Shown here piece by piece: positions 15,755 through 44,804 of a stretch of 64,000 bases of DNA. A model generated the notes under the pieces. The model searched no databases. It was not told the origin of the DNA and saw only the letters and a program-made list of their open reading frames with translations. The position numbers were made by a program, and so were the translations under genes. Source of the DNA: Parasphingorhabdus sp. SCSIO 66989 (GTDB lineage Bacteria; Pseudomonadota; Alphaproteobacteria; Sphingomonadales; Sphingomonadaceae); the NCBI RefSeq assembly GCF_032852305.1, contig NZ_CP136594.1, forward strand, positions 310,001-374,000, in the 5' to 3' direction. Position 1 is the first letter of the stretch, and the number at the start of each line of letters is the position of its first letter.

Positions 15755-15870
15755 CGTCATTGCGAGCGTAGCGGGCCGAAGGCGACCGAAGGTCAACCAA
15801 TCCAGGGCAACACGCACCTGCTCTGGATTGCCGCGTCGCCCGAAACAAGTTCGGCCTCCTCGCAATGACG
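15755..15870. repeat. Large palindromic repeat, CGTCATTGCGAG family
   Basis: The outer arms CGTCATTGCGAG and CTCGCAATGACG enclose inner arms CAATCCAGG and CTGGATTG. A sibling at 44074-44164 has the same nested order. The rest of the 15592-15943 gap holds a short GCGAAGAGCGCGAAGA motif and nothing gene-like. Confidence 0.85.
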
Positions 15871-27235: not shown

Positions 27236-27461
27236 TTTTTTTGAATTCTCCGCTTGTGACATCTGTAAAACCTGCAACGGTTTGCACAAGAGTGATGGAA
27301 GGCGGGGAAGAGATGATGAGCCTGGGTCCAGGCGTATTTTACCGCAGGGCTTGTCCCAGCCTGTCACGCGCCGCGATGCGCGCGCCTTCATCAACCACGC
27401 AACGCACGCAAAAATCTTTTCGGTCGCCCGTGTCGCGCCAAGAAAACAGGAGTATTACCCC

Positions 27462-30400
27462 ATGAGGAACATCCGCAATTCGCTTTTGCTCAGCACCATA
27501 TTGACGGCGGGCACCACCACGCTGCTGATCACGCCGCAGGAAGCGAGGGCGGAGGATTGTATCCTCGACACCAATGGCGATGGCACCGCAAATGGTACCG
27601 GCGGGGCCAACAGCGCCAGCGGCAGTGGCCGTCTTGCCTGTGGTCCAAACGCAATCGCCAGCGGCTCAGCGAGCACCGCAGTTGGCCCCAGAGCCGAGGC
27701 ATCGGGCACCGACTCGGTGGCCATTGGCGGCGATGGCGGCGACGCTGATGATGAAGGCGCGCTTGCTGCGGGAAACCAGTCTACTGCGCTGGGCAACGAG
27801 GCCAAGGCTTATGACAATGGCGCAACGGCTATAGGGTTTGACGCGCGGGCAGGCAGCAATGATGGGAACCCGGGCAACGCCATCAACGCCACCGCCATCG
27901 GCAATGCGGCCAGAGCGTCAGCCACTTCGTCCACCGCATTAGGGCAAGGCGCTGTTGCCAGCGGTGTGCGCTCCAGCGCCTTTGGCGCAAACGCGTCCGC
28001 TACCGCGCCCGATACCACAGCCAGCGGCCAGAACGCCCAGGCTATCGGGCAACGCTCAAGCGCCTTTGGCGTGGGCTCGTTAGCGGGGCGCGATGATGCC
28101 ACTGCCATCGGTCAAGGCGCGCGGGCTGCGGGCTTTAATGGAACAACAGCAGTCGGCACAGGTGCGAACGCCACGGGCAATGAAAGCACCGCGATTGGCT
28201 TCAATTCGGTGGCGAACTTACGTGCCACCGCTCTGGGAAATGGTGCACAGGCAAGCCGTGGGGGGTCCACCGCGATTGGAAGCGCTGCTGTTTCGAGCGG
28301 CCTTAACTCTATCGCTATCGGACAAGGTGCCAATGCCAGCGGTGACCAATCATTCGCTGCAGGGCAGGGGACCATAGCCGATTTCAACGACACGACTGCG
28401 ATTGGGCACAGCGCCGATGTGGGGGCGATCAATGCCACGGCGCTGGGTGCCAATGCGAATGCGGGCGGGCAAAGTGCGATCTCCATAGGTACAAGAAGCG
28501 CAGCGACCGGCGAGAACTCGGTCGCAATTGGCGGCGACGGAACCGACGGAGGGAACCAGGGTTCGATCGCATCGGGTGCCAATTCCGTTGCACTTGGAGG
28601 CGATTCCCAAGCCAATGGCGAGGACGCCACCGCTATTGGCGCAGGTGCGCAGGCAGCGGCGTTCGGCACCGCATTTGGCCGCCTCGCCATTTCCAGCGCC
28701 AGCGAGGCACTCGCAATCGGCCAGAACAGCGATGCAACCGCAGTCACCGCGACCGCTGTGGGCACCGACGCGCAGGCCACAGCCATTGGCGCGGTGTCGC
28801 TGGGCCGCCAGGCCAACGCTTCGGGCACCAACGCTCTGGCATTGGGTCGCTCAAGCGTGGCCAATCAGACCGGTTCCATCGCCATTGGTGGCGACGGTAA
28901 CGATACTGGGAATGAGGGTGCGCAGGCCACCGGGGACGCGGCCATTGCTCTCGGCATGGACGCCACAGCGAGCGGCAACAATGCCACCGCAATCGGCAAT
29001 AGCGCCGCTGCTGCGGGTGTAGATGGCATCGCAATAGGCAGAGGCTCCGGCATTGGCACCTCCGGCCCCGACAATATCGCCAGTGGCAGAAATTCGGGCC
29101 GGGCTGTCGATGGCAGCTTCAATATCGCCAGTGGCTATTCCGCAGGCAGAAATATCACAGGTATCGCCAATACCGCCATCGGCATAAATTCCGGCAGAGA
29201 TGTTGTTGGCAGTTCCAACATCGCTTTTGGTCCCGACGCAGGCCGCGATGTCGACGGCGGCTATAATACGGCCATCGGGGAAGGCGCAGGCAGATATATT
29301 GACGGAAACTACAACCACGCCTCCGGCTATTATGCGGGTCGGAACGTTACTGGAAACACCAATATTGCCAATGGCAATTTCGCTGGCGGTAGTATTTCGG
29401 GCAGCAGGAATATCGCTATCGGCAGACTTGCAGGCACCAATGGTTCGGGCGCTGGTCCCACGCTGAATATCGACCGCACGGTTGCCATTGGCGATGCGGC
29501 CATAGCCAGAGCCGATGACGCGGTTGCATTGGGTGCAGGCTCTATAGCGGATACCGCGAATACCGTTTCGGTCGGCGCGGCCGGTTCGGAACGCCGCATC
29601 GTCAATGTCGCGGATGGCACGACCGACACCGACGCCGCCACTGTGGGCCAGCTCAACGCCGCGATTGCGGGAGCGGGCGGGGGTTCGATCTATCTCGACG
29701 TCGATTCAACCACTGCAGCGGCCAGCGCAGGCGGCACCGGCGCGATTGCCATTGGCGGCGACAGCACCGCAGGAGATTCGCGCGCCATTGCCATTGGCGA
29801 AGACAGCAACGCCAGCGCCGAAGACACAACGGCCCTTGGCGCGGGCGCACAAGCCAGCTTCGGCGAATCCACCGCTATCGGCAGCGGCGCGCAAGCAGTT
29901 CGCTTTGGCAGCGCCTTGGGCTTCAATTCGGAAGCGGGCGCACAGGGTTCCGTCGCCATCGGGGCAAACACGCGCGCCCTGGCAGGTAACGCCATAGGGA
30001 TAGGCAATGGCGCTGTGGCCGCTGGTACGGCCGGAGTCGCGATCGGCAATAATGCAGGTATTGGCACCACGGGTGCGGGCAATGTCGCCAGCGGCGAAGC
30101 TGCGGGTCAGGATGTCGATGGCAATGGCAACATAGCCGGTGGCCGTTTTGCCGGCGGAAGTGTCACTGGTGATGCCAATATTGCCTTTGGCACCACTTCC
30201 GGCACCAATGTCTCAGGCAGCTACAATATTGCCACTGGCACATTTGCAGGCCAGAGCGTGACAGGCGACTATAACTTTGCCAGCGGCAGATATGCCGGAC
30301 TCGCTGTCTTGGGCGATCACAATATTGCCAATGGCTATTCTGCTGGCAGAAATGTTACCGGAAACGATAATATTTCCAGTGGTTATTCTGCAGGTAGAAA

Positions 30401-33400
30401 CATCTCCGGCGATAGCAATATCGCTTTAGGCAGAAATGCAGGCACCAATTCTCCGGGCGGTGCCACGCTGAATATTAACCGCACAGTTGCCCTTGGTGAT
30501 GAGGCTGTCGCCAGCGCTGATGATGCGGTTGCCATTGGTTCAGGAGCGCGAGCAAGCGGCCAGTCATCAGTGGTCATTGGCGATAGTGCCTTTTCTTCAA
30601 GTGATGGTGGCGTGTCGATAGGCAATGCTGCTGGCGCCAACAGCACAGGTGAAGTCAATATCGCAACCGGCGCAGGTGCGGGCAGCTCTGTTTCCGGGGG
30701 GTATAATCTCGCCAGCGGCGTCTCTGCCGGCACACGCGTTACCGGCTATAATAATATTGCACTGGGCAGATCAGCCGGCCGTTTAGTCGATGGCGAGAAT
30801 AATATTGCCAGCGGATATGCGGCAGGGCTTGCGGTTGACGGCAACCGCAATATTGCCAGCGGTGTCGATGCCGGTGGGTCAGTGACGGGAGATGACAATA
30901 TCGCCACGGGCATCAGAGCAGGCACCAATGTCGCAGGCAATAGCAATATCGCCATCGGTAGCCTTGCAGGTACCAATGGCTCGGGCGGTGCGACGCTGAA
31001 TATTAACCGCACGGTTGCCCTTGGTGATCAGGCCGTTGCCCGCGCCGATAATGCGGTTGCTCTGGGCGCTGGCTCTATAGCCGATACTGCGAACACGGTT
31101 TCGGTCGGGTCCTCCGGCAGCGAGCGCCGCATTGTCAACGTCGCCGATGCGACGGGCGATAATGACGCGGTTAACCTGAGCCAGCTCAACGCCGCGATTG
31201 CCGGTGCGGGCGGTGGATCGATCTATCTCGATGTGAACTCCACCGGCGCAGCCGCCAATGCTTCGGGAGCTGATGCCGTCGCGATTGGGTCCAATGCGCG
31301 CGCAACAAACACGGATACGATTGCGATCGGCCGAGATGCTGAGGCCAATAGCGACAGAGTGATCGCCCTCGGCGCGGAATCGGTGGCCAGCGGCGCGCGA
31401 AGCACCGCGATTGGCAACCAAGCCAATGCCTCTGACGAGGGGAGTCTTGCGGTTGGTTTTCGATCCGATGCCTCTGGATTTGGCAGCGTGGCGCTGGGCG
31501 GTACGAACGGAGGCGCGGATGGCGCGCAGGCCAGCGGGGAATCGTCCACCGCCGTCGGCTCCGCCTCGTTGGCGAGCGGGGAATTGTCCTCGGCCTTTGG
31601 CAGCGGATCCGAAGCAAGCGGAGAACTCTCCCTAGCAGTTGGTGCCCTTGCCGATGCCTCAGCCAACAACGCGACCGCCTTGGGTGCCAATGCGTTCGCC
31701 ATGGCAAGCAACGCCACCGCCGTGGGACGAAACGCCAACGCCAGCGGGACCAGTTCGGTCGCGGTCGGCGCGAATTCCGTCGCCAGCGAGGGCGGCGCCG
31801 TCGCGCTGGGCCGCAACGCCAACGCTTCGGGTGTTCAAGCTCTCGCTTTGGGGCAGTCAGCCACAGCCAATCAGCAAGGAACGATCGCCTTGGGCGGCGG
31901 CTCTGTTGCAAGCGGAATTGAGAGCATTGCGATCGGTCGCCAGTCCGACGCCACAGAGAACGGGAGCGTAGCCATCGGCGGCGATAGCGATTCTAGCGGT
32001 GACGGCGCCCAAGCCACGGGCGAGCTTGCCACGGCCATCGGCTCCGATGCGGTGGCGAGCGGCGAATTGTCATCCGCCTTGGGACATCTCGCTACGGCAA
32101 GTGGGGTCACTTCCTTGGCGTTGGGTCAAGACTCCAGAGCGACCGACACTAGCGCCGTCGCGGTGGGTCCCACCGCCCGCGCAACCGCTCGCAACAGCGT
32201 GGCGCTTGGCGCTGGGTCCCGGGCCGATCAGGCGAACACGGTTTCGGTGGGCTCCGCAACCAATCAACGCCGCATCGTCAACGTCGCGGACGGCACAGGC
32301 GATAATGACGCGGCAACCGTGGGCCAGCTTAACGCGGTGTCGAGCGTTGCCGATGCCAACAGCGCTGAACTGGCGTACTTCGATGTGAACTCAATCGGCG
32401 CAGCGGCCAGCGCTACAGCAACGAACGCGATCGCAGTAGGACCTGGATCTCAGGCAGTCGGCGTCAATTCTTTGGCGCTTGGAAACGCAGCCGGAGCCAG
32501 TGGTGCGGAATCGATAGCCCTCGGCGGCATTGCCGCCGCCGTCGCCGATGGCAGCATAGCCATTGGCGGCGATGGCGATTTTGATGGCGACGGCACACTG
32601 GCTTCGGGAGAGCAATCGACCGCGATTGGGTCCGATTCTTTGGCGAGTGGGGAACGCTCGGTTGCCTTGGGCAGCGAGGCGGTTTCGAGCGGGGAGAGCA
32701 CGGTTGCGGTCGGTGCGAATTCTGCCGCCAGTGGAGCCGGGGCAGCCGCACTGGGCCGCAACGCCAACGCTTCGGGCCTTCAAGCTCTTGCTTTGGGGCA
32801 GAACTCCAGAGCGACGAACTTCAGCTCTGTTGCGCTGGGGTCAAATGCCCGCGCAACCGTCAACAGCAGCGTTGCTCTCGGGGCGAGTTCTGTAGCCGAT
32901 CAAGCCAACACCGTCTCGGTCGGCTCGCCTGGTTTCGAACGCCGCATCGTCAACGTCGCGGACGGCACAGGCGATAATGATGTGGCAACCGTGGGCCAGT
33001 TGAACGCCGCCATCAGCGGCGCGGGCTTTGCCGGCAGCGACTATGTCGTCGTCAACTCCACCGGCACAGCGGCCAGCGCGACCGGCACCGATGCAATTGC
33101 CATTGGTCAGGAAGCGGTGGCGAGCGGCCCGGTAGCGCTCGCTATCGGACGCGGAGCCGATGCGACCCAGTCCCAATCGGTTGCGCTGGGTGCCTCCGCA
33201 GAAGCCTTGGGCGGCGGTTCAACCGCTGTCGGCTTCAGCGCGGAAGCAACCGAGGGTGACGCAACCGCCATCGGCAATGCGGCCGAAGCCTTGGGCGCGG
33301 ATGCCACGGCAGTCGGCGCAGGCTCGGCGGCCTTTGCTGACAGTGTCGGGGTGGGCGCAGGCGCTCAGGCCCAGAATGAGCGCGCCATTGCTGTGGGGCG

Positions 33401-36400
33401 CACCGTGGTTGCCGCTGGTGAAGGCGCGATTGCGATTGGCAGCGATGGTAATGACGTCGACTTTCCTTCTGATCCCAATATCGAGATCGGTGCGCAGGCC
33501 ATAGGTGACTATGCCATCGCGCTGGGGGCGGATGCGGTCGCCCTGGGCGAAAGCTCCATCGCCACGGGTGATGGCGCGTCTGCGGCCGGGCTCGATTCCA
33601 TTGCCATTGGCACCTTTTCCACCGCGACCAATGTCGACAGCGTTGCGATAGGCTTTAACGCGCTCGCCGATGGCGATTTCGCGGTCGCCTTTGGCTCAGA
33701 AAGCCTGGCATCGGGTGAAGATGCGGTGGCCTTGGGCGCGCAGGCCGTTGCCCTTGCTGATGACGCCATAGCGATTGGCGATGACAGTCTGGTCGAGGGC
33801 GATAACGGCATTGCCATTGGCGATGATGCCAGGGCGCTGGCCGCCGATGGGGTGGCGATAGGCGAAAGCGCCTTTATTGATACCACTGCGCAAAACAGCC
33901 TGGCCTTCGGTAAAGACGCATCGGCAACAGCGGCCAATGCGGTGGCGCTGGGGGCTGGCTCGGTCGCTGATCAGGCGGATACGGTCTCTGTGGGTGCCAG
34001 TGGCGCTGAACGTCGTATCGTCAATGTTGCTGACGGCAGCGCAGCAACGGATGCAGCGACTGTCGGCCAGGTCGATACTGTAGCCACAGCAGCAGCAGCG
34101 GCACAGGGCGATGCAACACAGGCGCTGGCAAATGCGGCCGCAGCCCAATCGTCGGCTGATGGCGCTCAGGGTGATGCGACGCAGGCTTTGGCGGATGCGG
34201 CTTCTGCTCAGACAGCGGCAGATGCTAATGCGGACGAACTCGTCTTCTTCGCGGCCAATGGTGCAGGCGCGGCAAGCGTGACTGGTGCAAACTCGGTCGC
34301 TATCGGTGCCGGTTCGGTGGCTGATGAGGATAACACCGTTTCGGTTGGCGCGGCGGGTAGTGAGCGCCGTATTGTCAATGTTGCCGATGGCACCGCAGAT
34401 GCGGATGCAGCTACGGTCGGGCAGCTCAATACCGCCATCGCCAATGTCTCTGTCGGCGGTAATCCCTTTGTTGCGATCAACAGCACCGGTCTGGCCGCCA
34501 ATGCGAGCGGCGCAAATGCGGTGGCGATAGGGCAGGCAAGTGCAGCCTCGGGCGCAAATGCAGTGGCCTTGGGCGCGGACTCGGTTGCGGATCGCGATAA
34601 TAGCGTTTCTGTGGGTGCGGCCGGCAGCGAGCGGCAGATCACCAATCTCGCCGCTGGCACACAGGACAGCGATGCGGTCAATCTGGCGCAGCTGACTGCG
34701 GTGGGTGATGCAACTACCACCGCGCAAACTGCGGCCGATGCGGCGCAGAATGACGCGACACAGGCGCTGACAGATGCAGCCGCCGCGCAAGGTGATGCAA
34801 CACAGGCCCTTGCGGACGCAGCAACAGCGCAAACTGCGGCGGACGATGCCCAGACCGATGCCGATCAGGCTCTGTCCGATGCTTCGGATGCGCAAGCCAG
34901 TGCGGATGCAGCTCAGGACAGCGCCGATGCCAATGCCGAAGAGCTGGCCTATTTTGATGTCAACTCCACTGGCGCAGGCGCGGTGGCTTTCGGCACAGAT
35001 GGCATAGCCATCGGACAAAATGCACAGGTCGGCAATGGTGCCGTTAACGGCATTGCCCTCGGCAATGGCGCGATTGTCGGCGACAACATCACCAATGCGG
35101 TGGCGCTGGGCGCGGGATCGGTCGCCGATCGCAACAGCACTGTCTCTGTTGGCGCGGTGGGCAGCGAGCGGCAGATCGTCAATGTTGCAGCCGGAACGCA
35201 GGATACGGACGCGGTCAATCTGGCACAGCTGACGACCGTGGGCGATGCCGCCAGCACAGCGCAAACCGCCGCCGATGCGGCGCAAAATGATGCTACACAG
35301 GCGCTGGCCGATGCCGCCGGTGCGCAGGGCACTGCCGACACCGCTTTGGCCAATGCCGCCACCGCCCAAAGCTCTGCCGATCAGGCGCTCAGCGAGAATG
35401 TCACCCAAAATGGCCTGATCGCTGGCAACGCCGCCAGTGCGGCCGCGGCGCAAAACACGGCAGATCAGGCGCTTGCCGATGCGGCGACGGCGCAAGGCAC
35501 CGCTGATACGGCCCTGGCCAATGCCGCCACGGCGCAATCATCGGCCGATCAGGCATTGGCCGAAAATGTTGTGCAAGATGGCCTGATCGCCGCCAACGCC
35601 ACCAGTGCAGCCGCAGCGCAAAGCACTGCGGATCAGGCATTGGCGGACGCCGCGACTGCAAAGGGAACCGCGGATACGGCGTTGGCCAATGCCGCCGCTG
35701 CCCAATCATCAGCGGATCAGGCGCTCAGTGAGAATGTTGTGCAGGATGGCCTTATCGCCGCCAACACGGCAAGCGCAGCAGCTGCGCAAAACACCGCCGA
35801 TCAAGCACTGTCCGATGCTGCAACCGCGCAAGGGACGGCCAATACGGCCATATCCAATGCCGCGGCGGCACAGGCGCGAGCCGATCAGGCGTTTAACGAT
35901 GCCGCGACGGCGCAGCTAACAGCAGACGAGGCTCGGGTTGAGGCGCGCGACGCCATGATGGCCGCGACGCAGGCTGGTGTGGACAGTGCCGAAGCTCAGG
36001 CACAGGCCGATGCGGCGTTTCAACGTGCGGTTGAGGCGCAGGCCGATGCCGATCTGGCCCGCAACAATGCAATGCAGGCGCAGGTGGACGCCGATGCGGC
36101 CTTTGCGCTCGCCGAGAGCAACAGCGAGGAGCTGGAATATTTTGCGGTTAATTCAACTGAACCAGGCTCCAGCGCAACCGGCAGCGATGCAGTTGCCATC
36201 GGCCCACAAAGCACGGCATCGGGCGACCGCTCGGTGGCCATTGGTGCCATGGCCGAGGCCAGCAACGGCCAGTCGGTCTCCATCGGCTATAGCAATGTCG
36301 CCAGCGGCGATGGCGCGGTCGCTATCGGCAATCCCAATAGCGCCATCGGCACCGGAGCGGTGGCGCTGGGCGCAGGCAATAGTGCTACCGGCACCGGTGC

Positions 36401-36986
36401 CGTTGCCTTGGGCAATCTGAATGTCGCCAATGGAGAAGGGGCAATCGCACTGGGCAATGGCGCAATGGCCACTGCCGATGGCGCCGTCGCGATCGGCAAT
36501 GGTGCCATCGCCGATCGTCCCAACCATGTTGCGCTGGGCTCAAGCGTCTCAACCTATCGGTTTGCAGGTCTCACTTCTGATGTCAGCAATGCCGCGCAAC
36601 AGGGCGTTGTCAGTCTGGTCACCACCGACGCACTGGGCAATCTTGGTACCAGCAGCCTCAACCTCGCCTCGCTCAACCAGCTGGATGGCCGGGTGGCGAC
36701 GCTGGAAGGGCAGATGGTCGCCGCTTTCGATCTCGCCAATACGGTGGACCGCGATGCGCAGCGCGGCATCGCCTCGATCGCAGCACAAGCCAACCCGCAT
36801 TTCCCAAGCGCAGCGGGGCGGACAAGCTATGCCAGCAACTTTGCGGTGTATCGCGGTGAGGTCGGCTTCTCCCTCGGCCTGATGCATCGCCTCGACAGCG
36901 AAGCACCATTCGCGGTCACCGCAGGTGTGAGCTATGCAGGCGGCAACTCGACCGCAGTGCGTGCCGGCATTGCCGGGGAGTTTTGA
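27462..36986 (+). CDS. Giant trimeric autotransporter adhesin (YadA/Hia type)
   Basis: About 3174 residues from the ATG at 27462, chosen because ACAGGAG stands ten bases before and MRNIRNSLLLSTILTAGTTTLLITPQEARA is a signal peptide; the frame extends upstream to 27282 without protein character. The passenger is a long left-handed beta-roll head with AIG..A.A.G..S.A.G repeats, three blocks of a 16-residue variant (see separate entries), eight neck motifs (NTVSVG..GSERRIVNVADGT..DAA.VGQLN), alanine-rich coiled-coil stalk with three 56-residue repeats, and a C-terminal YadA-like anchor (about 3074-3174: LDGRVATLEGQM ... GEVGFSLGLMHRL ... GIAGEF) that forms a trimeric 12-stranded barrel. The product should be a very long surface fibre for attachment. 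The ligand is unknown. A strong terminator follows. Confidence 0.93.
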   Translation: MRNIRNSLLLSTILTAGTTTLLITPQEARAEDCILDTNGDGTANGTGGANSASGSGRLACGPNAIASGSASTAVGPRAEASGTDSVAIGGDGGDADDEGALAAGNQSTALGNEAKAYDNGATAIGFDARAGSNDGNPGNAINATAIGNAARASATSSTALGQGAVASGVRSSAFGANASATAPDTTASGQNAQAIGQRSSAFGVGSLAGRDDATAIGQGARAAGFNGTTAVGTGANATGNESTAIGFNSVANLRATALGNGAQASRGGSTAIGSAAVSSGLNSIAIGQGANASGDQSFAAGQGTIADFNDTTAIGHSADVGAINATALGANANAGGQSAISIGTRSAATGENSVAIGGDGTDGGNQGSIASGANSVALGGDSQANGEDATAIGAGAQAAAFGTAFGRLAISSASEALAIGQNSDATAVTATAVGTDAQATAIGAVSLGRQANASGTNALALGRSSVANQTGSIAIGGDGNDTGNEGAQATGDAAIALGMDATASGNNATAIGNSAAAAGVDGIAIGRGSGIGTSGPDNIASGRNSGRAVDGSFNIASGYSAGRNITGIANTAIGINSGRDVVGSSNIAFGPDAGRDVDGGYNTAIGEGAGRYIDGNYNHASGYYAGRNVTGNTNIANGNFAGGSISGSRNIAIGRLAGTNGSGAGPTLNIDRTVAIGDAAIARADDAVALGAGSIADTANTVSVGAAGSERRIVNVADGTTDTDAATVGQLNAAIAGAGGGSIYLDVDSTTAAASAGGTGAIAIGGDSTAGDSRAIAIGEDSNASAEDTTALGAGAQASFGESTAIGSGAQAVRFGSALGFNSEAGAQGSVAIGANTRALAGNAIGIGNGAVAAGTAGVAIGNNAGIGTTGAGNVASGEAAGQDVDGNGNIAGGRFAGGSVTGDANIAFGTTSGTNVSGSYNIATGTFAGQSVTGDYNFASGRYAGLAVLGDHNIANGYSAGRNVTGNDNISSGYSAGRNISGDSNIALGRNAGTNSPGGATLNINRTVALGDEAVASADDAVAIGSGARASGQSSVVIGDSAFSSSDGGVSIGNAAGANSTGEVNIATGAGAGSSVSGGYNLASGVSAGTRVTGYNNIALGRSAGRLVDGENNIASGYAAGLAVDGNRNIASGVDAGGSVTGDDNIATGIRAGTNVAGNSNIAIGSLAGTNGSGGATLNINRTVALGDQAVARADNAVALGAGSIADTANTVSVGSSGSERRIVNVADATGDNDAVNLSQLNAAIAGAGGGSIYLDVNSTGAAANASGADAVAIGSNARATNTDTIAIGRDAEANSDRVIALGAESVASGARSTAIGNQANASDEGSLAVGFRSDASGFGSVALGGTNGGADGAQASGESSTAVGSASLASGELSSAFGSGSEASGELSLAVGALADASANNATALGANAFAMASNATAVGRNANASGTSSVAVGANSVASEGGAVALGRNANASGVQALALGQSATANQQGTIALGGGSVASGIESIAIGRQSDATENGSVAIGGDSDSSGDGAQATGELATAIGSDAVASGELSSALGHLATASGVTSLALGQDSRATDTSAVAVGPTARATARNSVALGAGSRADQANTVSVGSATNQRRIVNVADGTGDNDAATVGQLNAVSSVADANSAELAYFDVNSIGAAASATATNAIAVGPGSQAVGVNSLALGNAAGASGAESIALGGIAAAVADGSIAIGGDGDFDGDGTLASGEQSTAIGSDSLASGERSVALGSEAVSSGESTVAVGANSAASGAGAAALGRNANASGLQALALGQNSRATNFSSVALGSNARATVNSSVALGASSVADQANTVSVGSPGFERRIVNVADGTGDNDVATVGQLNAAISGAGFAGSDYVVVNSTGTAASATGTDAIAIGQEAVASGPVALAIGRGADATQSQSVALGASAEALGGGSTAVGFSAEATEGDATAIGNAAEALGADATAVGAGSAAFADSVGVGAGAQAQNERAIAVGRTVVAAGEGAIAIGSDGNDVDFPSDPNIEIGAQAIGDYAIALGADAVALGESSIATGDGASAAGLDSIAIGTFSTATNVDSVAIGFNALADGDFAVAFGSESLASGEDAVALGAQAVALADDAIAIGDDSLVEGDNGIAIGDDARALAADGVAIGESAFIDTTAQNSLAFGKDASATAANAVALGAGSVADQADTVSVGASGAERRIVNVADGSAATDAATVGQVDTVATAAAAAQGDATQALANAAAAQSSADGAQGDATQALADAASAQTAADANADELVFFAANGAGAASVTGANSVAIGAGSVADEDNTVSVGAAGSERRIVNVADGTADADAATVGQLNTAIANVSVGGNPFVAINSTGLAANASGANAVAIGQASAASGANAVALGADSVADRDNSVSVGAAGSERQITNLAAGTQDSDAVNLAQLTAVGDATTTAQTAADAAQNDATQALTDAAAAQGDATQALADAATAQTAADDAQTDADQALSDASDAQASADAAQDSADANAEELAYFDVNSTGAGAVAFGTDGIAIGQNAQVGNGAVNGIALGNGAIVGDNITNAVALGAGSVADRNSTVSVGAVGSERQIVNVAAGTQDTDAVNLAQLTTVGDAASTAQTAADAAQNDATQALADAAGAQGTADTALANAATAQSSADQALSENVTQNGLIAGNAASAAAAQNTADQALADAATAQGTADTALANAATAQSSADQALAENVVQDGLIAANATSAAAAQSTADQALADAATAKGTADTALANAAAAQSSADQALSENVVQDGLIAANTASAAAAQNTADQALSDAATAQGTANTAISNAAAAQARADQAFNDAATAQLTADEARVEARDAMMAATQAGVDSAEAQAQADAAFQRAVEAQADADLARNNAMQAQVDADAAFALAESNSEELEYFAVNSTEPGSSATGSDAVAIGPQSTASGDRSVAIGAMAEASNGQSVSIGYSNVASGDGAVAIGNPNSAIGTGAVALGAGNSATGTGAVALGNLNVANGEGAIALGNGAMATADGAVAIGNGAIADRPNHVALGSSVSTYRFAGLTSDVSNAAQQGVVSLVTTDALGNLGTSSLNLASLNQLDGRVATLEGQMVAAFDLANTVDRDAQRGIASIAAQANPHFPSAAGRTSYASNFAVYRGEVGFSLGLMHRLDSEAPFAVTAGVSYAGGNSTAVRAGIAGEF
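29073..29456 (+). repeat. Adhesin head block 1: eight 48-base units
   Basis: Eight consecutive 16-residue units of the form NIASGxxAGRxVxGxx (first NIASGRNSGRAVDGSF, last NIAIGRLAGTNGSGAG) with no insertion or deletion. The period differs from the 14-residue period of the classic YadA head. A neck motif follows at about 29560. Confidence 0.85.
30081..30464 (+). repeat. Adhesin head block 2: eight 48-base units
   Basis: Eight 16-residue units, from NVASGEAAGQDVDGNG to NIALGRNAGTNSPGGA, continuous in phase. The last unit again ends in GTN and is followed by TLNINRTVALGDEAV, like the end of the other two blocks. Confidence 0.85.
30657..30992 (+). repeat. Adhesin head block 3: seven 48-base units
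   Basis: Seven 16-residue units, from NIATGAGAGSSVSGGY to NIAIGSLAGTNGSGGA, followed by the same TLNINRTVALGDQAV exit sequence. One unit fewer than blocks 1 and 2 suggests unit gain or loss by recombination. Confidence 0.85.
35376..35879 (+). repeat. Adhesin stalk: three 168-base tandem repeats
   Basis: Three consecutive 56-residue units begin at 35376, 35544 and 35712, each starting ADQAL(S/A)ENV.Q.GLIA. Fifty-six residues equal eight heptads, so unit number can change without breaking the coiled-coil register. Confidence 0.85.
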
Positions 36987-40247: not shown

Positions 40248-43001
40248 CTAATCCTGCGCCTCGGCAATCCGTCGCCGCCAGCCCTGTATGCGGATGGCAC
40301 CCAGATTGACCAACGGTTCAGCATCATCCAGCACTATCGCCGGGGCCTTGAGTAGCTGGTCCGCCTCGATGGCATCTGCGGAGAGCTTTTCGACCCGCAG
40401 GGTATAGCGGCCATAGGGCACGCGATCGAACAGGAAGAAACCGTCAAATTCGGTCTCGGTGCTGGTGTGTATCCGGCCTTCCACGTCGAGAAGTTCCAGC
40501 TTCACCCCGCCAATACCGGTGCCGCTGGGCCGCACCAATGTGCCGTCTATCTCGCCCGCCGCCACCAGCGGCAGCTCGACCCGTGCGGCGACGCCCGGTC
40601 TTGGGGTCACCACGATCCCGGCACCGGCGGGCTGCAAATAGGGATCGGGCAGGCTGCCGGCATCGACGCCGACCAGCACCGGCTGAAACGGTTGCAAGCC
40701 ATCGATCACCGAGCGGCCATTGGCATCAGTCGGGGTCAGCGCCACGGTGCGTCCGGCGGTCAGTTCGACATCGGCTTCCAGCGGCTCATCATGCTGGCGG
40801 ATGCCATCGGCATTGATATCGCGGAACACCGTCGCCATCACCTGGCCATTGGTCGCCAGCCGCTCATTGCTGAAACGCAGCTGGCCATTGCGCGGATCGG
40901 GGCCGAGGCTGAAGGCAAGATTGATCCCGGCGGCAAAAGACCCATCGCTGGCCGCTTCAACACTGGTGTTCAATGAGAATTTGTCAAACTGGCGGATATA
41001 GCCAATGCCCAGGCGGGTGCGGTCAAGCTGGGCGTCAAAGCCAAGCTCTGCACGCCAGTTGGACCGCCGGCCCTGTCGCCATTCGCCGACTATGGTAGCT
41101 GATTGGAAGCGCGACTCCGGCGACAGACGGAAACGCGACTCCCCGCGCAGGCGGAACTTGCCAAGCCGGATATTGGCGCGCAACGCGGTGTCGAGCAGAC
41201 CATCGGGGTCAGGGCCAAAGCGGCTGGTATTGCGCACCCATTGCACCTCGCTGGTCAGCGACAGGTTACGCACCGCATAGGAGAAGCGGCCCGACGCCTC
41301 GAGCGTATCATTGCCAGTATTGCGCGATCGGTGCACCGCCTCCACCTCAATCGGGATGGTCGCATCGCCAGAACGGAAAAAGTGCGTCAGCGACAGGCGC
41401 TGGCGCCGGGTGACATTTTCCTGCAGCTGATCGGACCGGAAGCCATCATTGCCCCAGATGCTTTCCGCACGGACAAAGCTCTGGCCGAACTGACCAAGAA
41501 ACTGCCCGCGCACGGCATGATTGCCATCTGCATCATAAGCTCCGGAGATTTCGATCAGTGCTTGTCCGACGGCCCTGCGGCCCGACAACTCGAAGATGTT
41601 CGATCTCCTGCCAAAGATATTGAGGCTGTGAAACGCCGCGCCCAGCGATGTTCGCTTGTCGAGGCCATGTTCCAGCCCTAATGTGCCGCGCCAACCCTGG
41701 GTCGGCACCTCAACCGGATCGCGCAGCGTGATCAGATCGCGTCCGGCCTGGGTTGCACCGGCCCAATAATAGGTGTCGCCTGGCGGAATACTGTCCTGCC
41801 CCACCGGCAATGACAGCTTTTCGCGGCGTACCTGACCTTGCGGGCCGTAGAGCACGATCTCGAAATCATTGACCCCGAACAGCAGCGGCACATCGATAAA
41901 TTCATAGCGGCCATCGGCGCGGTTCTCGGTAAAAGCCAAAAGCTGGCCATTGCGATACAGCTCGGCATCCCAGCCGACGGGCAGCGATCCACGAAAGCTG
42001 GTGCGGTCAAAGGTGTCGGGGCGCTGGAGCGGACGATTGGTCACCAGCGCACCACGGCCAATCACGCTTTGCGCCACCAAGGGCGTGGAAATGGTCGCGA
42101 CATCGCCCACCGCCACCTGTGTCGCCTTGAGCGGGCCCAGCATGTCACCGCGTGGATCGGCGCGATAGGCCCGTACACGCAGGCTGTTCGGCACGCCTTC
42201 ATTGTCCGATGCCAGCCGTGCATCGACCGAGGCCTTGCCAATCTCGCCCGAGGCAAACAGTTCATAGCGCACATCAAACTGCCCCCTGCCCTGCGCCTGG
42301 TCGCGCAATCCGCCGACCGACAAAACCGCATCAACCGAAGGCGTTTCCCAGACCGAATAAGGCTGGTCCGCCTGCGGCAGATCGGCAAGGTCAAAGGCCT
42401 TGACCGGGCGGATACGTGCGGCACGCGCCTTGCGTTCAGCGGCGCGCTGAAACGGCAATTTGCGCTCCGAGGTCAGCAGCAACAGCGCATTGGAAAGATC
42501 AGGGGTCAGTGTCACGCCCAGCCAGTTGGACAAAGCGCGGCTATCCACGCACCAGCCTTCGGGCGTATCATAAAGATCGCCCGGCGCCAGTGACTGCCTC
42601 TTGTTCATGTTTTGTACTATATTCTGGTCACGGTCAACGGTGAGATTTTCCTCCTCCGCGAAAATCCAGCCAGTTGCGCGGCGCGACTTTTTGTCAAGCC
42701 GCACCGGAATATCGAGCGCCATAATCACATCGGCAAAATCGACGCAGACGCCCCTATCGGTGACATAGCCGCGCACCCCATCACCCAGTCGGAACTGGCC
42801 TGAGCGGATATCGAGAAGCAGAAAATCATCGTCATTGGCCTGCCAGCCATTGCTCGCACTATCGCTACCTATGGTGAACGATGCCTCCGCGGCGCTTTCA
42901 TTTTGCGCAAAGCCAGGCACGGCAAAAACCGCAGACAGACAGGCTGTCGCTGCGGCTAATGCTCTGAAAACAGGCTTTTTTAGGGAAAGGAGAGAGATCA
43001 T
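40248..43001 (-). CDS. Usher-like outer membrane protein of a chaperone-usher locus
   Basis: A 917-residue exported protein (signal peptide 1-32, ending GFAQ). An N-terminal domain with LLLDIRSGQFRLGDGVRGYVTDRGVCVDFADVIMALDIPVRLDKKSRRATGWIF is followed by a plug-like and barrel region (about 230-700) with features of ushers, such as LPVGWDAELYRNGQLLAFTENRADGRYEFIDVPLLFGVNDFEIVLYGPQG. The C-terminus (about 730-910) has carboxypeptidase-regulatory-like beta domains (GQVMATVFRDINADGIRQHDEP, EIDGTLVRPSGTGIGGVKLELLD). It should secrete and assemble subunits at the outer membrane together with the chaperone upstream. It is divergent from classical FimD-type ushers, so the call rests partly on its neighbours. 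Confidence 0.75.
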   Translation of the reverse strand: MISLLSLKKPVFRALAAATACLSAVFAVPGFAQNESAAEASFTIGSDSASNGWQANDDDFLLLDIRSGQFRLGDGVRGYVTDRGVCVDFADVIMALDIPVRLDKKSRRATGWIFAEEENLTVDRDQNIVQNMNKRQSLAPGDLYDTPEGWCVDSRALSNWLGVTLTPDLSNALLLLTSERKLPFQRAAERKARAARIRPVKAFDLADLPQADQPYSVWETPSVDAVLSVGGLRDQAQGRGQFDVRYELFASGEIGKASVDARLASDNEGVPNSLRVRAYRADPRGDMLGPLKATQVAVGDVATISTPLVAQSVIGRGALVTNRPLQRPDTFDRTSFRGSLPVGWDAELYRNGQLLAFTENRADGRYEFIDVPLLFGVNDFEIVLYGPQGQVRREKLSLPVGQDSIPPGDTYYWAGATQAGRDLITLRDPVEVPTQGWRGTLGLEHGLDKRTSLGAAFHSLNIFGRRSNIFELSGRRAVGQALIEISGAYDADGNHAVRGQFLGQFGQSFVRAESIWGNDGFRSDQLQENVTRRQRLSLTHFFRSGDATIPIEVEAVHRSRNTGNDTLEASGRFSYAVRNLSLTSEVQWVRNTSRFGPDPDGLLDTALRANIRLGKFRLRGESRFRLSPESRFQSATIVGEWRQGRRSNWRAELGFDAQLDRTRLGIGYIRQFDKFSLNTSVEAASDGSFAAGINLAFSLGPDPRNGQLRFSNERLATNGQVMATVFRDINADGIRQHDEPLEADVELTAGRTVALTPTDANGRSVIDGLQPFQPVLVGVDAGSLPDPYLQPAGAGIVVTPRPGVAARVELPLVAAGEIDGTLVRPSGTGIGGVKLELLDVEGRIHTSTETEFDGFFLFDRVPYGRYTLRVEKLSADAIEADQLLKAPAIVLDDAEPLVNLGAIRIQGWRRRIAEAQD

Positions 43002-43074
43002 GATATTGCGATTTGCAGATCAGCAGGGCCAGCCGGGTATATGCCCGCTCCTCTCTGGCCGAGCGCCCAGGTGC

Positions 43075-43917
43075 CTATTGCAGCACCGTGTCCATCTTGG
43101 TGATCAGGCCGCCGCCGGCATTGCTCGCCTCATAATAGGCAATCGACACTGGCCCTTTCATCGCGCTGGCCAGCTCCTCCGGGATCGGGAAGCGCACCGT
43201 GCGGCCATCCAGCTCGGGATAGACGGCGATACCGCGTGCCACCAGCAATGGCTCGTCTGCACCCGGCTTGGTCACGCGAATCTCGCCAAAGGTCGAACCC
43301 TCGCCCAGCCGCGCCAGATCGAAAGCCAGCGCTGCGCCTTCATTGTCACGCTCGATGCGGCCATTGGCGATGCTCGCCGTAGCCTCGAGGCGGCCTTTGC
43401 GCACGATAATCGGGATGGTCACGCCGTAGATCGGGGTCAGGGCAATGGCGAGGCCTTCGGTCGGCGCTTCGCTCTGCTCTGTCACTGAACGCGCATCGGG
43501 AATGGCACGGAACAGCATATGTGCACGATATTCGCCATCGGGCAGATCCGCAGGTGGACGGATACCGATGCGGATCGCCTGGGGCTGGTTCGGCGGCAGG
43601 GTGACGCGGCGTGGCGCATAGCGGATCATTTTCAGCGCCGCCTGTTCCAGCGCATTGGCCTCTTCCTGGCTAACCTCATCAAGACGGCCATCAGCCGTCA
43701 TCCGCCGCAATTCCAGGCTGATGCGATAGGTAGCGGTCTCATCGCCGACATTGTTGAGGATCACCTCGGTGCCGCGCTGCCCATCGAGCACCACCCGCGT
43801 CGGCGCGACCAGCAAGTCGCCGCCCGCAGCATGCGCCGGACTTGTTGCCAGAGTGCCTAGCGTACAGACCGACAAAGCGGCATATGTAAGAAAAGCGGCG
43901 AGACAGCTACGAAACAT
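43075..43917 (-). CDS. Periplasmic PapD-like pilus chaperone
   Basis: About 280 residues from ATG 43917 (ribosome site AGAGGGA; the frame is open to 43989). A signal peptide ends near SPAHA. The mature part has the two immunoglobulin-like domains of fimbrial chaperones: GDLLVAPTRVVLDGQRGTEVILNNVGDETATYRISLELRRM, the family-typical IRYAPRRVTLPPNQPQAIRIGIRPPADLPDGEYRAHMLFRAIP, then a second domain with TPIYGVTIPIIVRKG. It would hold pilin subunits until the usher accepts them. It lies between the subunit gene and the usher-like gene. Confidence 0.85.
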   Translation of the reverse strand: MFRSCLAAFLTYAALSVCTLGTLATSPAHAAGGDLLVAPTRVVLDGQRGTEVILNNVGDETATYRISLELRRMTADGRLDEVSQEEANALEQAALKMIRYAPRRVTLPPNQPQAIRIGIRPPADLPDGEYRAHMLFRAIPDARSVTEQSEAPTEGLAIALTPIYGVTIPIIVRKGRLEATASIANGRIERDNEGAALAFDLARLGEGSTFGEIRVTKPGADEPLLVARGIAVYPELDGRTVRFPIPEELASAMKGPVSIAYYEASNAGGGLITKMDTVLQ

Positions 43918-44073
43918 GCGGATAATCCCTCTGCGATATGTGTCAGGACACACAGGCAGAAAACTCTCCCCGCCAGTGCATCCGCTCACCGCATGTCATC
44001 GCTGAATATGGTTGATATTTCGCTAACCATAGCTGTCAGCGTTTTGGAAACCCGCTTTCGCGTTGCATTGCAC

Positions 44074-44164
44074 CGTCATTGCGAGGAGCGAAGCGACGAC
44101 GCAATCCAGTGCGGTTTATGATGGCCCTGGATTGCCGCGCTCCCTCTGGTCGCTCGCAATGACG
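44074..44164. repeat. Large palindromic repeat, CGTCATTGCGAG family, second copy
   Basis: CGTCATTGCGAG at the left and CTCGCAATGACG at the right enclose CAATCCAGTG and CCTGGATTG. It has the same layout as the copy at 15755-15870 and stands between the chaperone gene and the subunit gene. Confidence 0.85.
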
Positions 44165-44214
44165 CATGGAATTGGGTGTTTGGGAAACTCGGCCTCGTCT
44201 ACGTTTTAAGCATA

Positions 44215-44255
44215 AAAAAGGTGCCCAACGCGCGAGCGCCAGACACCTTGAGCTT
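44215..44255 (-). terminator. Terminator between subunit and chaperone genes
   Basis: Read on the minus strand, AAGGTGtctGGCGC and GCGttggGCACCTT form an interrupted stem followed by TTTTT, about 50 bases after the subunit stop. Partial termination here would give more subunit than chaperone and usher. Confidence 0.65.
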
Positions 44256-44306
44256 TTATATGTGAGGCCGAATTAAATGCGCATCGGCTCGTAGTTGGAT
44301 CAGCTA

Positions 44307-44804
44307 TTACTGATAATCGACGGTCACTTCAAAAGTGCCACTATAGGCACCATCGGCCTGGCTATCGCCAACGGTCAGCGTGCCGCCGACGGCGAAGCTG
44401 TCACCACCGGCGAGAACCAAAGTGGCGTCCGAACCAGACAGAGCAGCAGTCATGCTGTCGCCGTCATTATTGGTCAGCGTCACATTGTTGTCGACGGTGA
44501 TATCAACGGTTTCGCCGGTGGTACCGGTAACGTCAAAACCTGCGGCCGAGACGGTGCCCGAGCATACCAGGTTCGCATCACAAGCGGAAAGCGCGCCTGC
44601 TGCGCTGATAACCACATCACCACCGGTATCCCCGACAACGATGGTGCCGAAGTTCAGCGCCGAGCCGTCCGATTCAACCGTAACCTGTTGCAGAATTTCT
44701 GCGGTCGCAACGGCTTCTGCCGTATCTGCATGTGCAGCGGTTGAGGTCATGGCCGCCATAGCCGCAGCCGAAACTGCCATTGCTTTAAAAATCGTCTTGT
44801 TCAT
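44307..44804 (-). CDS. DUF4402-like major pilin/fibre subunit
   Basis: A 165-residue exported protein. The signal peptide covers about 1-26 (ending TAAHA-D). The mature part is rich in Ala, Gly, Thr and Val with alternating beta strands (ALNFGTIVVGDTGGDVVISAAGALSACDANLVCSGTVSAAGFDVTG) and two cysteines that could form a disulfide. The pattern and the C-terminal GAYSGTFEVTVDYQ resemble the DUF4402 family, which is found with chaperone-usher genes. A clear ribosome site (GAAGGGA) precedes the ATG. It is first in the leftward locus and likely the abundant subunit. Confidence 0.85.
   Translation of the reverse strand: MNKTIFKAMAVSAAAMAAMTSTAAHADTAEAVATAEILQQVTVESDGSALNFGTIVVGDTGGDVVISAAGALSACDANLVCSGTVSAAGFDVTGTTGETVDITVDNNVTLTNNDGDSMTAALSGSDATLVLAGGDSFAVGGTLTVGDSQADGAYSGTFEVTVDYQ

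Follow-up and report, generated by a model that had tools for sequence, protein, structure and literature searches.

Does the three-gene locus at 40248-44804 of the window (the whole 64,000-nucleotide stretch of Parasphingorhabdus sp. SCSIO 66989 DNA that was analyzed) encode a chaperone-usher system, and if so, how does that system relate to the known ones? A preliminary description of this DNA had proposed genes for a subunit, a chaperone, and an usher in that order, with an usher divergent from the FimD type. The extent it gave for the locus is exact, and the features within it are as follows:

44307-44804, minus strand: DUF4402 subunit (pilin), 165 aa with a signal peptide; reading frame open
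44218-44249, minus strand: terminator-like hairpin between the subunit stop codon and the chaperone gene
43075-43917, minus strand: periplasmic chaperone, 280 aa counted from the ATG that precedes the signal peptide; reading frame open
40248-43001, minus strand: usher, 917 aa; reading frame open

An alternative start for the chaperone, an upstream GTG, would give a protein of 304 aa. Standard annotation conveys little of this arrangement. In Pfam, the subunit matches PF14352 (DUF4402) at 4.8e-26, the chaperone has no match above the cut-off, and the usher's sole matches are CarboxypepD_reg and SdrD_B, both near its C terminus; NCBIfam returned nothing useful for any of the three. RefSeq names the Sphingopyxis counterparts “DUF4402 domain-containing protein,” “molecular chaperone,” and “carboxypeptidase regulatory-like domain-containing protein,” and the chaperone of Polaromonas JS666 “fimbria/pilus periplasmic chaperone.” The suggestion that this is a poorly described class agrees with these names and with the literature searched, in which, with most subscription papers outside the search and a prior description thus possible, DUF4402 is nowhere mentioned; the same literature yielded no paper joining chaperone-usher systems with Sphingomonadales. 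Elsewhere in the window, a few kb from the locus, a 3234-aa protein (27282-36986, plus strand) with repeated trimeric-autotransporter (YadA/Hia-like) head motifs is, by its sequence, likely a second surface adhesin. Two inverted repeats, at 44074-44164 (between the subunit and chaperone genes) and 15755-15870, end in CGTCATTGCGAGCG, which matches the window seven times where 1.45 would be expected; these repeats are a dispersed palindromic element.

Identification of the usher required comparison of profiles and predicted structures. Alignment (hhalign) of a profile of 37 homologues with a profile of 17 archaic ushers gave a match of 99.3% (E 1e-20, 531 columns), collinear from the plug through both C-terminal Ig-like domains up to residue 872. 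The same profile matched alternative ushers at 97.2% and classical ushers at 96%, with reversed profiles reaching a few percent at most. The AlphaFold model (mean pLDDT 85.5) contains the barrel and plug that the preliminary description had proposed to look for: 24 barrel strands, counted from the DSSP line of the model, with a six-stranded plug inserted between strands 6 and 7. A Foldseek search of the PDB with this model returned FimD and PapC as its top 17 matches (E down to 5e-29), the next kind of protein following only at 5.5e-10, some 19 orders of magnitude behind. The predicted usher domains are:

residues ~52-200: N-terminal domain
residues 218-701: barrel
residues 333-400: plug
residues ~719-798: CTD1
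residues ~804-870: CTD2

The divergence from FimD-type ushers that had been noted is thus borne out for what is by fold a real usher. Pfam's usher model PF00577, a sequence model with no structural criterion, does not match the window protein in its own genome even at E<=10, and matches 4 of the 37 homologues weakly (best 9.7e-4). Searches of PDB sequences, by single protein and by profile, recovered no usher, and chaperones only as weak, non-significant matches, the similarity being too remote for that method. With a single FimD or EcpC sequence the usher profile gave no alignment, profiles being needed on both sides; BamA, LptD, and FhuA as single-sequence controls also gave none, a result that says little when FimD and EcpC alone fail likewise. 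The least certain part of the usher is its N-terminal domain, modeled as a folded unit with two helices ahead of the barrel; its own profile match is weak (35.6%), and the Foldseek alignments with FimD span more than 900 columns and cross it.

The preliminary description had treated C-terminal regulatory-like beta domains as an atypical feature of this protein. In alignment, the “regulatory-like” domain corresponds to CTD2 of ordinary ushers and, given the FimD/PapC fold of the whole, is the usual CTD2, not an atypical addition. In CTD1, residues ~726-739 (FRDINADGIRQHDE) resemble the calcium-binding DxNxDG loops of SdrD B domains; Asp728 of this loop is invariant, and FRDINADGIRQHDE-like sequence is conserved in much of the family. 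Ushers of three loci (L058, L059, and L061) carry ~300-400 extra proline/alanine-rich residues ahead of the N-terminal domain. An apparent 3603-aa usher in L078 was discarded as an artifact of a run of N in the sequence.

The chaperone likewise matches its archaic counterparts: hhalign of its profile against ten archaic chaperones gave 98.0-98.3% (E 1.7e-13 to 1.1e-14), with reversed profiles below 1%. Pfam PapD_N is touched by 16 of 36 homologues, at best at 1.6e-7. Residues Pro39, Asn56, Gly77, Pro102, Arg116, and Pro169 coincide with conserved archaic chaperone residues. One proline is invariant across all chaperone classes (PMC4654587); Pro102, kept in 35 of 36 homologues and aligned with a proline in 10/10 archaic chaperones, would be this residue. 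The archaic carboxylate anchor spans two domains and comprises CsuC Arg89, Arg174, and Tyr196 (PMC4654587). It appears to be matched only in part: Tyr233 aligns with the conserved archaic tyrosine; Arg131 and His133 are nearly invariant in the family at the position of the strand-F arginine, and it is His133, not Arg131, that falls on the archaic arginine; Arg203 aligns with an asparagine of the archaic chaperones. The chaperone profile also touches Gram-positive WxL-interacting proteins (EfmWxLIP1, E 8e-4), which are another Ig-like partner of surface proteins.

The subunit had been described as DUF4402-like and no classic fimbrin. The PF14352 match upholds the first part; that the protein is foreign to pilins does not follow, as its domain is remotely related to the spore-coat-U type (SCPU) pilins of archaic systems, with a profile match of 96.5% against at most 0.1% for reversed profiles (hhalign). 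The AlphaFold model (pLDDT 89.3 overall, 93-98 over the domain from residue 31) gave 49 chaperone-usher pilins or their complexes among its top 50 Foldseek matches in the PDB, including Caf1, CfaB, CsuA/B, FimG, DraD, and SafA, with Caf1 as the nearest solved fold; TM-scores are low (0.3-0.46) and match probabilities near 1. A complete immunoglobulin fold, in which a chaperone would have no part, did not come up in the predicted model: its last strand is the C-terminal one (160-164), the segment EVTVDY being proposed as strand F, and an N-terminal extension of residues ~27-41 is left unpaired. Across 59 homologues, positions -22, -20, -18, -16, and -14 of this extension, counted back from the Phe of an LxFG motif, are hydrophobic or alanine in 46-90%, and the positions between them in 15-39%. 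We propose that the extension, with this alternation, is a donor strand fit for donor-strand exchange.

Conservation of the gene arrangement supports a joint role for the three proteins. A search of 301 Sphingomonadales genomes with the usher found matches in 92, strong in 89 and through the C-terminal domain only in the other three. The order subunit-chaperone-usher was present in all 40 diverse loci read, each chosen by its usher match and holding one to five subunits, and another collection showed it in 76 of its 80 loci, with a gene missing from the remaining four, mostly on short contigs; such recurrence is not chance. Close relatives have one subunit gene per operon in 64/80 cases and, as in the window, a parB gene near the locus, also in 64/80. 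DUF4402 scores above the family cut-off in 88 of the 301 genomes (about 30%), every one of which has the usher. The domain never occurs without the usher in this set, and the single genome with an usher and no DUF4402 match (G137) has a DUF4402-like subunit adjoining the usher (L073). The co-occurrence has p = 1.8e-76, a value that overstates independence given the relatedness of the species. A stand-alone surface protein, considered as a role for the subunit, was rejected on this co-occurrence. Beyond the order, a collection of 84,980 species holds at least 488 usher-like stretches, the locus occurs on Polaromonas and Pseudoalteromonas plasmids, and two more genomes of the phylum hold full-length homologues. 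The Polaromonas loci (L245 and L246) have IS6 transposases nearby, and the locus can thus probably move between strains.

The hairpin at 44249-44218 consists of a 13-14-pair stem with a trailing TTTTT and lies 58 nt past the subunit stop codon. By one strict criterion, 41 of 77 related loci have a similar hairpin ~20-58 nt past their subunit stop, compared with none in five shuffles of each locus and one on the reverse strand. We propose that it is an intrinsic terminator acting as an attenuator. A terminator past the subunit gene in many relatives is what would be expected of a major pilin, made in surplus by attenuation.

Where does this system stand among its kind? Three groups are distinguished within the chaperone-usher pathway: alternative, classical, and archaic (PMC9452303; PMC10104325). 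In a quick tree of 55 ushers (22 of this family, 15 archaic, 7 classical, and 11 alternative), built on a remote alignment and with long branches, all 22 family members fall on one side of a branch with an SH-aLRT of 100. On the tree and the profile scores, the ushers of DUF4402 loci form a separate family that lies apart from the sampled ushers of all three groups. The tree tests allow more than one sister group for it: a tree uniting it with the classical group stands unrejected (p-AU 0.345), and its placement beside the alternative ushers has a support of 91. The matter bears on the origin of the chaperone-usher pathway, according to whether the sister group is archaic or alternative. That the system is simply an ordinary archaic (sigma, Csu-like) member that has drifted, with no lineage of its own, is rather unlikely. 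The archaic ushers are indeed the best match to the usher profile, and the tests do not reject a tree that unites the family with the archaic core (p-AU 0.087); against this stand the split of the 22 family ushers from all three sampled groups and the fact that archaic and classical ushers match each other (1.6e-50) far better than either matches the family (6e-20 and 1.7e-9, respectively). As for archaic membership itself, the pilins are DUF4402 proteins, SCPU-like only remotely, and the ushers lie outside the sampled archaic clade. We are slightly more inclined to believe than to doubt that the family is a main chaperone-usher lineage beside the classical, alternative, and archaic ones, with DUF4402 as its own pilin domain and one usher operon plus distant pilins, common in Sphingomonadales and present also in Polaromonas and Pseudoalteromonas. 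Such a lineage would owe its lack of a name to standard models that fail to recognize its usher.

The preliminary description further held that the locus has no tip gene, so that the subunit itself may bind the target. The window indeed has no adhesin gene adjoining the usher; the conclusion drawn from this is weakened by genes elsewhere. Five DUF4402 genes occur in the window's genome, which has no other usher by Pfam: one at the locus, three in tandem at C1:738-2509, and one at C1:3141218. The tandem adjoins a tldD-like gene, and single or paired DUF4402 genes have this neighbor in nine other genomes read. Because none of the 301 genomes had DUF4402 in the absence of the usher, the simplest view of the distant genes is that they encode additional subunits of this fiber; the four are probably further pilins. 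In three relatives (L069, L070, and L072), the usher gene is directly followed by one for a protein of 324-330 aa that ends in a DUF4402 domain and appears built like a two-domain tip adhesin. The window's genome has no full-length homologue of this protein, the DUF4402 part alone matching well and in single-domain genes, so the tip would be one of the distant pilins, or the fiber is tipless. A separate class of distant DUF4402 proteins has a conserved N-terminal QC-x-x-C after the signal peptide (L007:9219-9749, L257:1989-2501, and L258:2319-2825), and is perhaps a tip or terminating subunit.

Whether the fiber is a tipless polyadhesin, in which a single DUF4402 pilin both polymerizes and binds its target as in F1/Saf/Psa-type thin fibers, is doubtful. 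The prevalence of one subunit gene per operon in the close relatives, the lack of an adhesin gene next to the usher in the window, and the identity of the nearest solved fold, Caf1, as a polyadhesin pilin would all suit such a fiber. They are opposed by the four additional DUF4402 genes, three of them in the tandem whose tldD neighborhood is kept in other genomes, by the up to five subunits of more distant relatives, and by the post-usher proteins of L069, L070, and L072.

Taken together, the locus is very probably a chaperone-usher pilus system of an unrecognized, deeply divergent family, known here from its genes and predicted folds. It is highly improbable that the usher-like protein belongs to another kind of outer-membrane barrel carrying regulatory domains, such as a transporter or receptor, with its DUF4402 neighborhood incidental: Pfam and RefSeq see only the carboxypeptidase-regulatory-like domain, but Foldseek places FimD and PapC first by the wide margin given above, the profiles match all three known usher groups and their reversed versions none, and gene order and co-occurrence are near perfect.

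From the genes and models we infer a fiber, its assembly by donor-strand exchange, roles in it for the distant pilins, and a purpose in attachment or biofilm formation. The DUF4402 pilin would be exported and bound by the PapD-like chaperone, which would lend a strand to complete its open immunoglobulin fold. At the usher, the N-terminal extension of the pilin would take the place that the chaperone strand occupies in the preceding pilin, and the lengthening chain would pass through the plugged 24-strand barrel to the cell surface. The terminator after the pilin gene would provide far more pilin than chaperone or usher, and the DUF4402 genes elsewhere would supply minor, tip, or terminating subunits of the same fiber.

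The evidence here makes DUF4402 a pilin domain, at least in Sphingomonadales, and gives a function both to this domain and to hundreds of “carboxypeptidase regulatory-like” proteins. For sphingomonads, known for biofilms and pollutant degradation, the locus points to a likely attachment organelle that is invisible in their annotation. It also extends the range of known usher sequences, with the consequence that surveys relying on the Pfam usher model miss this family.

Among the closest known systems are the archaic (sigma) pili, Csu of Acinetobacter baumannii and CupE of Pseudomonas aeruginosa, with which the locus has in common the usher plug, barrel, and CTDs, a chaperone of two domains that keeps the invariant proline and, in domain 2, the conserved tyrosine, and a pilin with a proposed N-terminal donor segment and a C-terminal aromatic strand. 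In contrast to these, the window usher has no Pfam Usher match and lies outside the sampled archaic clade, DUF4402 pilins take the place of SCPU, the window's branch has no adhesin gene after the usher, and the chaperone anchor arginine is displaced by two residues in the alignment. With the alternative (alpha) pili, ECP and CFA/I, the locus shares the order subunit-chaperone-usher, as in ecpABC, and its usher matches the alternative profile, whereas it has no TcfC match in its own genome and occupies a separate branch of the tree. The classical FimD, PapC, and Caf1 systems are alike in usher fold (FimD and PapC) and pilin fold (Caf1 and FimG) by Foldseek, although sequence similarity to them is at the limit of profile methods. 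Pfam PF14352, to which the subunit and its paralogues belong above the cut-off, gives no function for DUF4402, and the likenesses set out here supply a candidate one, that of a pilin.
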